Assembly (NCBI GenBank): GCA_033065855.1
Contig: JAVXUO010001977.1
Location: 186,001-250,000, forward strand
Source: Escallonia rubra
Taxonomy: Eukaryota; Streptophyta; Magnoliopsida; Escalloniales; Escalloniaceae
Direction: 5' to 3'
Length of the DNA: 64,000 nucleotides
Under the pieces are notes generated by a model, which did no database searches, was not told the DNA's origin, and saw only the letters and a program-made list of their open reading frames with translations. A program made the translations under genes and the position numbers. Shown in pieces: positions 5,384-15,499 of the stretch. How positions within the stretch are numbered: position 1 is the first letter of the stretch; each line of letters begins with the position of its first letter.

Positions 5384-5626
5384 GGGCAAATCCCAAAACT
5401 GTACCATTAACTTTACATTTTGTACAACTTTAATACTCAAGTTTGAATATGCACCAAAGAAGTACCTAACTTTTAAAAAACATATCAAATCAGTACCTAG
5501 GCTGACAGATGGTGGATGTCATTAGAAAGTCAGAGGGGTATGACTGTCATTATGAAAAAATCCATAAAGTCTGTCCATGTGGTGACGTGGAGCGTTCTTT
5601 CTGATACAAATTGATTATTGACTCTA

Positions 5627-5675
<49 letters not shown>

Positions 5676-6746
5676 TACACACACACACACATTCTCTCCT
5701 ATCTATATATTCTCATCTTCTCTTTCTCTCTCTTAGACAACATACACACACAGTCTGTCAGCGTGGTCGTGCGTGGTCGTCGGTGGGCTGGATTCCAACA
5801 TGGTCCTGGGTGGTATGCCGACGTGGTCGTGGGTGGCCGTTGGTGGGCCGGATTCCAGCAATAGTCGTGGGTGGTCTGCCGGCATGGTTATGGGTGGTTG
5901 TGGATCTACCGGCGTGGTCTTGGGTGGGCCGGATTCCGGCATACGAAAACAAGAACAAGTGAAAATTGTTCTTGCAATGATAAGAAAAACACAAAGCTAG
6001 GAGGATCTGAGATCAAACATTGGACAAACTGTCGTTCTGGCATAGCTCCAGTTCTATCTATGCGGGGAGTGAAGAGAAGGCGAAAAAGTGCCGCCTGGTG
6101 CAACATTCACTTGCAGGCTGATAGCGGGTCTAAGAAAGTTTGTTGAAAAAGGGGCAGGAGATTCTTCTTTGTCCATGCACCGATCTTCCCACTCAGGGTT
6201 TTGGGGTCAAAGGGCTGCATATGCATTTGCCACATTCACAGATTGACCAACGATAGTCAAGGGTAGCAAAGTACACAGATTGACTAACGATAGTACAAAT
6301 TTCTGCTAATATAATGGTTGTTTTCAATGGCTTGATTGAATTTGGTTGAGTTTATAATCTCTTGCTTAACTTGGGATGGATGCCTTGGTTGTATCTTGAT
6401 GCCAGGAATTTGGGGTTTTACTTGTTGGTTGATGGTAGTTATGGAGATGCTTAGTATGGTAGATGATGCGGCATCAAAGAGAGGGAGTGGACATAGAGTT
6501 TTTTAATGATTAATTAAGAAAGATAAAAAATCGAATGGTTAAGATAGTTCCACATGTTTTTAAGATACACTCTTATGTTATTGACAATCATACCCCTATG
6601 ACTTTCTAACGACAACCGTCGTCCGTCAGCCGATGTACTGATTTGGTACTTTTTTAAAAGTTGGGTACTTCTTTGGCGTACCTTCAAACTTAAGTCATAA
6701 AGCTGTACAAAATGTAAAGTTGAGGGTACAGTTTTGAAATTTGTCC
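5384..6746. mobile_element. Non-autonomous Mutator-like element (MULE A)
   Basis: Long terminal inverted repeats of roughly 180 bp (about 5384-5570 and 6573-6746) share the core CAAAACTGTACC near their tips and a stretch around AACTTTACATTTTGTACA. A perfect 9-bp target duplication, AAAGTTTAA, flanks the element at 5375-5383 and 6747-6755. Long inverted ends with a 9-bp duplication are the hallmark of MULEs. No transposase is present. The inside holds a (TA)n/(CA)n/(CT)n stretch (5620-5760) and a GC-rich block (about 5757-5945) of repeats around GTGGGCCGGATTCC that keeps several frames open. I do not regard those frames as genes. Confidence 0.9.
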
Positions 6747-11535: not shown

Positions 11536-12150
11536 TTACCCTTATAGATCGCTAGTTGAACAAGAGATTAAAATAAGTTTTTTGGTTCAACGGCATTGGA
11601 GCGAGCTTGACGAAAATTTCGTCGCTTAAGTTCATTGTTAGCCCATCTAATAGCACATTTAGCTACAAACTGATGCCACTTTATTTAATAGTTTCACGGG
11701 TTCATGGACATGAATTTGACACCTTAAAAACTTGCCCAACATACCCCCATCAAATCCATCTGGTACTGTGTCCCCATGGTAATTATTTGGTCCTCCCACG
11801 GTAGAATACTAGTATTATACTTTATTTTATCAAAATAGTCGTGACTTAGCTAAAACAGTATTATAAAAGATTACAACCTCTCCCTAAATCATCTTGTGAC
11901 CACAATTTTTCACGGATAGATTAACAAGTGTATACAATAAAGTGATAAACAATTTGTGTACTAAAATGTTGGAAATAATTAAAAGATCGATGAGTTAAAT
12001 ATATATTAGTATTCTAGAAGTACGCGAAAATCTTACTTCAGGCACCATGTTTTTAATTTTTACGAGTCAGGATCTGGAGTTTTGATTATACAATTAGTAA
12101 ATACTTCTGTTCAAATCCTTAACTTTACTCCTAAATCATCACGGACAAAA

Positions 12151-12237
12151 GATCAATTTGCATGCTACGGGACGTATTAGATCAATTTACGTGTTAAGGG
12201 GTGTATTAGATCAATTTACGTGTTAAGGGGCGTATTA
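12151..12237. repeat. Tandem repeat, 3 x 29 bp
   Basis: Three consecutive 29-bp units start GATCAATTT and end GTATTA (12151-12179, 12180-12208, 12209-12237). The last two units differ at one base; the first is more diverged. Confidence 0.9.
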
Positions 12238-12836
12238 GCAAAGTAACAGCACTTTACCTTAAGAGCTTTGTGGCTATCTATACTTGTGAGCATGAAGTAA
12301 ATCCCATTTGCACATTCACTAGTTAAACTAATGAATAATTTTTTGCTGCTATTCCGGTTGTAGAAATCTTCGTCCAATCCTCTAATAGTCGCTAAATTTT
12401 CTAGTGACTTCTCTGTCAATAGTTTCATCAACAATACTTAGCAGCATTTATTTAACGTCACTAAATAAAAGTCAAAATAAATATTTAGCGACCGTTAATT
12501 GTCAACTTTATAGGGAGTAGAATGAAGATTCTTTCGACCCGACTAGCAGCCCAAAATTTTATAAACTAATTAAGCAAGAAAGATGCAGTAATAAGTTTGT
12601 ACTTGCGCTGAACACTACAAAGCAAGGCATGTTGGTGCAATGAAGGAATATGAATATGGACATACATAAAGACAAAATTATTGGTCATACCCTAAGCAAA
12701 AGTCCAATGACTGGTATATGATAATGTTTTAAAATGTAAAAGCTTCAATGCATCATCACTACCTTTCAGAAAATTGGTAAAGTAATCTAATTATTTGATT
12801 AAGCAACTCTTGACCATTACGTATGAATGTAGTGCT

Positions 12837-13033
12837 TGCTTTGAATGCTTTTCAGCAATCAACAGTGAGGGACATGAGCAAGGATTTCAGCTTTGAAAAT
12901 TATTTTAGAAGCCACAGGATCACACATGTGACTTTATATGGCTTTGTGTATCCTGTGGCTTCTAAAATAATTTTCAAAGCTGAAATCCTTGCTCATGTCC
13001 CTCACTGTTGATTGCTGAAAAGCATTCAAAGCA
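12837..13033. repeat. Perfect 84-bp inverted repeat (foldback) with 29-nt spacer
   Basis: The left arm (12837-12920) and right arm (12950-13033) are exact reverse complements over all 84 bases; I checked each base pair. The spacer is 12921-12949. Two bases beyond the right arm the sequence repeats again: 13036-13050 copies 12975-12989 (15 nt) and 13050-13077 copies 12927-12954 (28 nt). A transcript would fold into an 84-bp perfect duplex. The foldback lies 161 bp upstream of the DUF1645 start codon and may be within its 5' leader. Possible origins are a template-switching mutation, a proto-microRNA-type inverted duplication, or a foldback assembly artefact. Confidence 0.95.
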
Positions 13034-13193
13034 CTCAAAGCTGAAATCCTGTGACTTTATATGGCTTTGTGTATCCTTAAATTCAGGAGCAAAATGGTAT
13101 ACACTCAACCCCTCTTCCCAGCAACCCGTTTCATGTAAAGTACTTGTTCCTCTCTTGGAGTGTCTTTGCAGGCTCAGAGTTTTTGCCTTATAT

Positions 13194-14411
13194 ATGGAGC
13201 ATAAAGCTCAAACCCCAGGCTGTTCTTCCTATGTGAGTGCACCCACAAGCCCAGGCGGTTGCAGCGAGGATGATATGCAGTACTTCTACAGTGCACCGAG
13301 CAGTCCAATAAAAAGGCTCGGGAGAAATGTCTCGTTTAGTTATTGCTATGAATCCGGCACACAGAAGATGAAGGAGGATATCAACTCCGACTTGGATGAC
13401 TTCGAGTTTGAAACTAGTAAAAAATTTGGCGATCACTGGGAGTTTGAAGGAAGCCCAAAATTCGAGTGCTTGGTTGGCGACGAAGAGAAGCAAGAACAGC
13501 TAAAGCAACCAGAGGGTGGCAATTCGTTTTCACGAATGGCATTTGCGGATGACATATTTTCCAATGGCCAAGTCTTGCCTTTGAAACTCCCGCCTCGTCT
13601 TCAGTATACTAGCCAAAGCTCGATTCCTACATCGCCAAGGTCCCCGAGTTCGGTACTCAAGATCCCATTTTCTCTTCAGAACACGTGGAACAATGACTAC
13701 GATCCATTCGCGATTGCCTTAAAGAAAGTTAGCAAAGAAAAAAAGGGAAGGCCTAGTGTCCATAGACGTGCTCGGTCACATTCACCATTTAGAAGCCCTG
13801 CAGCACAGAGCCCAAATGACTCGGGACACAAGCCGAGGAGCGAAGTGCCACAACCGCAACGTATCGAACGTAGCCCGAGTGAGTTGGGGGGGTCGAGGGG
13901 CTCGGTTTACGCGAGATACCTTCGAAGCCAAACCATGGGACACAAGGGATCGTTACTTGTGGAGCCAAACGCAAGAGGTCTAAGCAAGCCCAGAGTGTTG
14001 TCTTTTGGAAGAAAGGTGAGACCCGAGAAGCTGGCCCAGGAAGGGCCCATCAAGCCCACTGTTGTAGGGCCCGAAACAGTGGGGCCCAACAAACAGAGCA
14101 GTGTAAAGAGTGACAAGAGTTGTGGTGAGGAAAGCAGGATGCGGAAGATGAAGGGACTTCTGATCAGGTATGCATCTTTTGGGATGGAAAAAAGGGACAG
14201 TGAAGGCAAGGCAGAAAAGGGAAACCAACTTGCGTTAGTGTCAAAACCAAGTTACTTCAAGAAGTTGAGCTTCAAGTTCAAGCAAAGTGGCCATATAAAT
14301 GGGAAGAAGAAAGATTCCCCAGAGGCTAAAATGGCAGTTGTGCAGTACAGGCCATTGAAAATGGCCCTCTGCTTGGGTTACGGGATGGAAAGTCCAAGAA
14401 ATTCCAAGTGA
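13194..14411 (+). CDS. DUF1645 family protein, 405 residues
   Basis: The frame is open from 13008, but I start at the ATG at 13194 because it gives MEHKAQTPGCSSY, a typical start for this plant family; the upstream codons cross the foldback and look non-conserved. Features in order: Ser/Pro-rich N-terminus with SAPTSP and SAPSSP; an acidic stretch with FEFE (about residue 70); FADDIFSNGQVLPLKLPPRL (about 115-135), a family signature; a basic Ser/Arg-rich middle with RRARSHSPFRSP; and a C-terminal block MRKMKGLLIRYASFG, then YFKKLSFKFK. These match plant DUF1645 proteins such as At1g15350. Their function is not established; the low-complexity, basic composition suggests a non-enzymatic regulator. 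TCTTTGCAG at 13163-13171 could be the acceptor of a 5' leader intron. The coding part has no intron and looks functional. Confidence 0.85.
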   Translation: MEHKAQTPGCSSYVSAPTSPGGCSEDDMQYFYSAPSSPIKRLGRNVSFSYCYESGTQKMKEDINSDLDDFEFETSKKFGDHWEFEGSPKFECLVGDEEKQEQLKQPEGGNSFSRMAFADDIFSNGQVLPLKLPPRLQYTSQSSIPTSPRSPSSVLKIPFSLQNTWNNDYDPFAIALKKVSKEKKGRPSVHRRARSHSPFRSPAAQSPNDSGHKPRSEVPQPQRIERSPSELGGSRGSVYARYLRSQTMGHKGSLLVEPNARGLSKPRVLSFGRKVRPEKLAQEGPIKPTVVGPETVGPNKQSSVKSDKSCGEESRMRKMKGLLIRYASFGMEKRDSEGKAEKGNQLALVSKPSYFKKLSFKFKQSGHINGKKKDSPEAKMAVVQYRPLKMALCLGYGMESPRNSK

Positions 14412-15499
14412 ATGGCCCCCTCATATGGAGCTCATTGGTCCATTTCTTGCCATCCTTTTTCTTCTACTTGTTTGCTATAGGGCTTGAATCATAATAACTC
14501 AATTATTGTGCTTTTTGTGGATATGTAACAGTATTTTATTTCGTTATTGGTATTCAGGGTAACCCTCATTTTTCACATGCGAGATCATGTTCTACTTCTT
14601 AATCTCCAGAAATATTAGCATAAGATAAGGAACGGAATATGATTACTATACACAATATCACAACAAATTACTGATAATTATGCTTAAGGTTCTTTATCAC
14701 TTGCATCGAAACGTGGACAGGTCAACTATCTTAAGGTAGCGTCCGTTTGGCAAAAAATTGACCTAGAATTTTGTTAAATCATAGGTTCTTGCAAAATCTC
14801 TGGCTTTTATCTCTCTAGTTCTAGAATTTACTAATCCACGTATTTCTAAGTATCGGATCTCTCGAAAAAAAATTAGTTACTACTCGGGTTGAAAGAATCT
14901 CCCTCCTACCCTTCATATAGCGACAATTAGTGATAAATATTTCTAGTGACTTTTATTTAGTAACGCTAAAAAATACTGTTAAGATTTATCGCTGAAGGTG
15001 TTGGCAGAAAAATACTATAAATATTTAGCAACTATTAATTGTCACTATCTACGGTGTTGGAGGAAGATTTCTACAACCCGAGTAACAGCCAAAATGGAAT
15101 TAACAAATCCCGTCAATTTGTAATCCTCAGTCAAATCTGCAAAATTGAACTCCCCACCTCAAGACTTATGAGAATCACCAATTCTTACCTAGGTCAAGCT
15201 TCAGTGCTTCACTCCACCATTAGAGGTACCTACCTTTCCTCACTTCTCACATGAATGCCCAACCCACCTCCATCAATCATCAATTTTCTCGTTGCTCTTC
15301 GTCTTCTCGCCCTAAACGATCTCCCGCCAAGCTAAAGAAACAAAATCAAGTTCAATAGTATAGAGATATAATACTCATTCATCAGGAAAACTAAAAATTC
15401 TTAAAAAAATAATGTTCGTTAATTGAGCAATTGAAAAAGAATTCTTGAAAAGAATGTTTCACTGAAACTTCTTCGATAACAAAACTGTACAACAGTGTT

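Follow-up and report, generated by a model that had tools for sequence, protein, structure and literature searches.

Origin of a perfect 84-bp hairpin upstream of a DUF1645-like gene in Escallonia rubra: a probable single 123-bp insertion copied from adjacent sequence

A long, perfect inverted repeat lies just upstream of a protein-coding gene in Escallonia rubra. How did it arise, and does it have any function? We examined it in a window of 64,000 nucleotides, the whole stretch of DNA that was analysed (contig JAVXUO010001977.1, positions 186,001 to 250,000 of the forward strand); coordinates below are those of the window unless a contig is named. A first-pass annotation, made from the letters of this window, had described the repeat and proposed that it could be a proto-MIRNA locus, could affect translation of the adjacent gene if part of its leader, or could be a template-switch mutation or a long-read foldback artefact.

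Anatomy of the hairpin and its surroundings

The annotated foldback was recovered as described: the two arms are complementary at 84/84 positions and are separated by a spacer of 29 nt (table 1). The partial third copy was also confirmed. It follows the right arm as 16 nt in inverted and 28 nt in direct orientation; a portion of the right arm thus occurs once more, together with most of the spacer and 5 nt of the arm. In a BLAST comparison, 90 query letters (18–107 of 12820–12954) aligned with 89 on the opposite strand at 99% identity. Pairing of the arms extends inward beyond a 1-nt bulge, and outward by two more matching bases when the left-hand TGCTTGCT is read with one TGCT unit fewer, which places the copied source at 12831–12915. 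Folded as RNA, the 311 nt around the hairpin reach −180.5 kcal/mol, compared with a mean of −69.7 kcal/mol for shuffled sequences (z = −21.6; none of 100 shuffles folded equally well). The structure is far beyond chance. A 62-aa open reading frame (12823–13011), which runs from the left arm through the spacer and into the right arm, is probably fortuitous.

Table 1. Coordinates of the hairpin, the proposed insertion and the downstream gene in the window.
Feature	Position	Strand	Remarks
Left arm	12837..12920	+	probable original, templating sequence; source reaches 12831
Spacer (loop), 29 nt	12921..12949	.	probable original sequence
Right arm	12950..13033	-	inverted copy of 12837-12920; reaches 13035 with one TGCT unit skipped
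Short second inverted copy	13035..13050	-	of 12881-12896, 16/16
Direct copy of 12927-12954	13050..13077	+	28/28; contains TATA-like TTTATATGG
Imperfect inverted repeat	12916..12954	+	in the putative empty site; 5 + 5 bp, 1-nt bulge
123-bp insertion	12955..13077	.	putative empty site 12954/13078; exact rebuild
Downstream gene, 405-aa ORF	13194..14411	+	DUF1645-like, just below Pfam cut-off

The structure lies 116–160 nt upstream of the ATG of a 405-aa open reading frame. DUF1645, a plant-specific family, was the sole Pfam match to this frame and scored 24.5 bits against a cut-off of 25, so that the gene label is likely while formally just under threshold. We searched the plant's own genome with both the protein and the upstream DNA for a paralogue retaining the ancestral upstream region, and found no empty site. 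The protein search returned one relative at E ≤ 0.001, 36% identical over residues 10–184 and located on contig C1870 (three candidates scored). The DNA search returned the locus itself and four matches to a short dispersed repeat at about 12506–12562; the C1870 relative was absent among these matches.

Several other repeats were noted in the window. Relatives of the short dispersed repeat occur at 84–85% identity on four other contigs. A MITE-like pair in opposite orientation (12340–12577 and about 14870–15095, outer limits set by eye) flanks the DUF1645-like gene, its two members matching at 87% over 38 nt (12340–12377 with 15057–15094). A 29-nt unit is present three times in tandem at 12150–12238 (31-nt matches, 81–84% identical to the first). 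Further away, a 97-nt inverted repeat (5384–5480 and 6650–6746, 86% complementary, 1,169 nt apart) is possibly a transposable element.

Rebuilding the insertion from adjacent sequence

The simplest reading of these coordinates is that the whole structure would be one insertion of 123 bp, whose exact position can shift within the 28-nt direct repeat. Decomposition by script found local templates for the insert in the adjacent stretch 12831–12954, and a scripted rebuild of 12700–13200 from the putative empty site was exact at 501/501 bases. The ingredients were three local copying steps and one slip of a 4-bp tandem unit: 12915 back to 12831 was copied inverted with one TGCT unit omitted, 12895–12882 was then copied inverted, and 12927–12954 was copied directly. 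The omitted unit sits in the TGCTTGCT tandem, just beyond the perfect arm, and may have been lost during the event or later. The need for this added slip is a point against a single-event explanation. What was observed directly is the set of copied segments, the first-switch microhomology and the exact rebuild from them.

At the first switch, the empty site would have carried an inverted repeat, AGGAT(C)ACACA upstream and TGTGTATCCT at the 3' end. AGGAT at 12916–12920 and ATCCT at 12950–12954 provide 5 nt of microhomology, and five more pairs form beyond the 1-nt bulge. We propose that this imperfect 10-bp inverted repeat could have served, through its 3' half, as a good snap-back primer. By statistics devised after the locus was seen, 5 nt of microhomology was attained by 1,225 of 200,000 random forward-to-inverted joins in the locality (0.6%), and a pairing partner in the preceding 80 nt for the last 10 nt before the switch, allowing a single bulge, exists here as at 132 of 59,501 control positions in the window (0.22%). 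The stability of the ancestral hairpin is unexceptional (162 of 1,906 nearby 39-mers fold equally well), and a 5-nt partner 14–80 nt upstream is unremarkable, being present at 8.5% of positions. Microhomology at each of the two later junctions is limited to 1 nt, and these junctions are therefore not themselves pointers to priming.

The template switch put forward in the first-pass annotation was the best reading of the locus, and is well supported by the exact rebuild from neighbouring sequence together with the 5-nt microhomology at the first switch. The locus combines the features of a short-range template switch or foldback inversion: an adjacent inverted copy (84/84), a quasi-palindrome with microhomology at the first switch point, and an insert derived as a whole from local templates (501/501 with one 4-bp slip). 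From these observations we infer the empty site and the occurrence of a single event, as well as its setting and the order and direction in which synthesis proceeded. In this scheme, a 3' end at 12954 would have folded back on its own strand through the pre-existing imperfect inverted repeat, AGGAT at 12916 pairing with ATCCT at 12950 and five further pairs forming beyond the bulge. The folded end would then have been extended by about 80 nt along its own strand, to about 12831. After release, the new strand would have re-copied 16 nt (12896–12881), been released again and rejoined the normal sequence at 12927, with the result that 28 nt are repeated. This could have taken place at a double-strand break with 28-nt 3' overhangs, through fold-back synthesis and end joining, or as a template switch at a replication fork. 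The 28-bp flanking repeat would fit a break with 28-nt complementary 3' overhangs, and would equally be given by a replication template switch that returned upstream of its departure point; the sequence separates neither these two settings nor the two directions of synthesis.

The steps resemble mutations described in other systems. Induced breaks in wild-type yeast are reported to yield inverted local insertions of 10 to >150 bp, most foldback events being about 5–34 bp and some >150 bp; the inverted microhomology behind them is imperfect, spans 10 bp and encloses a loop of 41 nt (PMC11724301). As at this locus, the yeast events described there start from an imperfect 10-bp inverted microhomology, copy adjacent DNA in inverted orientation and show little microhomology at the closing junction (PMC11724301). 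The loop here would be 29 nt between the 5-nt halves, or 18 nt if all ten pairs form. Unlike the yeast events, the present case is a natural plant locus with a presumed break and 79–84 nt copied, and it carries an additional 16-nt re-copy and a 28-bp direct repeat. Short-range template switches likewise are described as placing a perfect inverted repeat beside its source in one step (PMC7954356, PMC8794818). In the gold-standard set reported for great apes, copy length has a median of 12 nt and does not exceed 128 nt, and many events return upstream of the point of departure, as here (PMC7954356). Compared with typical template switches, the copy at this locus is long, and one inverted fragment goes beyond the four-point model. 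The insert is long, yet inside the size ranges published for yeast and apes.

Repair by SD-MMEJ uses hairpin or loop primers and is described as leaving direct or inverted repeats (PMC7407515), and human Pol theta is reported to start from two terminal base pairs when it extends stem-loops (PMC11292364). The events proposed here share with these systems the priming by a hairpin near a break, the subsequent release, and a templated insertion with repeats in inverted and direct orientation (PMC7407515, PMC11292364). The primer repeats given for SD-MMEJ are 1–4 bp with limited synthesis, against which the roughly 80 nt copied here is long (PMC7407515). Breaks with complementary 3' overhangs have been found to yield small tandem duplications (PMC8355091), and the 28-bp direct repeat on both sides would be the expected product of filling in such overhangs. 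In contrast to such duplications, 95 bp of other, inverted sequence separates the two copies here. Natural tandem duplications in rice are said to have been the topic of an earlier study.

We next considered whether the structure was built up by several separate mutations, for instance a 28-bp tandem duplication with filler first and the inverted copy later. The junctions other than the first share only 1 nt of microhomology, which is compatible with such a history and means that the order of steps is not fixed by the sequence. Against it, there is no substitution between the copies, and one local event requires fewer steps. We consider a stepwise origin unlikely, and a single mutational event that put 123 bp upstream of the gene highly probable.

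Age, uniqueness and competing origins

The copies differ by zero substitutions over 224 compared sites (5 counted twice). At plant substitution rates of 1.3e-8, 7e-9 and 2.5e-9 per site per year, this bounds the age (95%) below about 1.0, 1.9 or 5.4 Myr, respectively; the bound would be looser if one arm had since been repaired from the other. The annotation had called the structure very recent. This is reasonable given the absence of substitutions, and loose in that the bound is only about 1–5 Myr at these rates.

We surveyed 306 kb for similar structures, excluding repeats of complexity below 0.4 (mostly TA runs) and overlapping palindromes. Of this total, 260 kb came from contig C2018 and included the window, and the remaining 46 kb was drawn from other contigs (C1393 and C2176, two 10-kb stretches each, and C1870, 6 kb). 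The hairpin was the sole exact inverted repeat with arms >26 nt and a spacer ≤600 nt, the comparison on C2018 covering the best 25 of 35 repeats. These 35 were the exact inverted repeats on C2018 that passed the complexity filter, had arms ≥16 nt and had spacers ≤1,000 nt; among the best 25, all others with arms of at least 27 nt had spacers of at least 632 nt. The 46 kb contained three inverted repeats with spacers ≤600 nt, the longest arm being 20 nt. Among the same best 25, long inverted repeats, interrupted by about 600–960 nt of spacer, form clusters outside the window at C2018:130380–131514, 99029–100052 and 254544–255511, and these clusters resemble transposable elements.

The structure might instead be artefactual, the product of a read, chimeric or folded back, that entered the consensus during sequencing or assembly. 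In vitro processes also produce perfect inverted copies with microhomology. Read fold-backs, however, usually extend to the end of the molecule, whereas the arm here is only 84 bp, and it is followed by two further switches, after which the sequence resumes collinearly. In addition, the survey outside the window (242 kb; on C2018, among the best 25 of 35) turned up no similar structure, so this assembly is not full of them. The short arms, the collinear return and the two extra switches make a simple long-read foldback artefact, one of the annotation's options, improbable, somewhat more so than a stepwise origin.

A search of the 566-Mb genome with the arms and spacer, which skips very common words and scores the best candidates only, found the locus itself and no other copy. 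At E up to 10, too, the locus was the only match to the arms (best candidates scored). Three arm probes, covering 64 of the 84 arm bases with two mismatches allowed, found one extra place, with two mismatches, on C2463; a spacer probe with three mismatches allowed found no extra place in the genome. A separate source of the arm, which the annotation had suggested seeking, was therefore not found among the candidates scored in the 566 Mb. These results bear on whether the repeat is a transposon-like foldback element or MITE with a 28-bp target duplication. An inverted repeat with a flanking 28-bp direct repeat has the outline of such an element, and MITE-like repeats lie in the vicinity. Its sequence was found nowhere else in 566 Mb (best candidates scored), a single locus where multiple dispersed copies are expected, and the insert can be rebuilt from local sequence alone. 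A transposon origin is strongly contradicted, and we regard its probability as negligible.

Possible consequences for transcription and small RNAs

Template switching has been proposed as an origin of microRNA hairpins in mammals (PMC8794818), and young plant foldbacks are thought to traverse an siRNA-like stage if a promoter is nearby (PMC1790633). A young small-RNA locus, in which dicing of a transcript through 12837–13033 leads to silencing in cis or in trans, would be compatible with a single-event origin. The 84-bp perfect stem could feed dicer if transcribed, and inverted duplications are described as an accepted origin of young plant MIRNA and siRNA loci (PMC1790633, PMC3237417). However, plant MIRNA stems are imperfect and suited to DCL1, for which perfect double-stranded RNA is reportedly a poor substrate (PMC1790633), and the stem here is perfect over its 84 bp. 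Loci born by inverted duplication have arms that resemble a protein-coding target; no such resemblance, and no further source gene of the arms, was found in the genome search (best candidates scored), and the three arm probes pointed, besides the locus, only to the one place with two mismatches. Rfam gave two matches, both far under threshold: MIR845_2 at 33.8 bits (gathering score 80) and mir-1255 at 24.6 (63). The proto-MIRNA reading of the annotation thus gained no positive support beyond the stem, with no other source of the arm among the candidates scored and no Rfam match at gathering score, and we consider it very unlikely.

A TATA-like TTTATATGG occurs at 12933 and 13056, the second copy having been made by the insert, and an intron-like acceptor, read by eye from the letters, ends at 13171. 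These signals are too weak for placing the transcription start. The duplicated TTTATATGG could matter if it belongs to a core promoter, and perhaps aids transcription of the hairpin. It is highly doubtful that the hairpin is transcribed and yields cis-acting small RNAs or double-stranded RNA that lower or silence the DUF1645-like gene. If true, this would be a hairpin RNA gene caught at its first step, one that owes its origin to fold-back synthesis within a promoter instead of the duplication of a target gene. Nothing tested supports a function for the hairpin, and the insert probably leaves the organism unaffected or alters promoter or leader modestly.

The insert is best explained as a recent slip of DNA repair or replication, fairly long yet of an ordinary mutation type. 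It adds one more natural case to a mutation class already on record from yeast, apes and bacteria, namely fold-back synthesis or short-range template switching, and establishes no new principle. It offers a clean natural case in which one such slip would have set a long perfect hairpin beside a gene, and hairpins of this kind are the proposed raw material of new hairpin RNAs.
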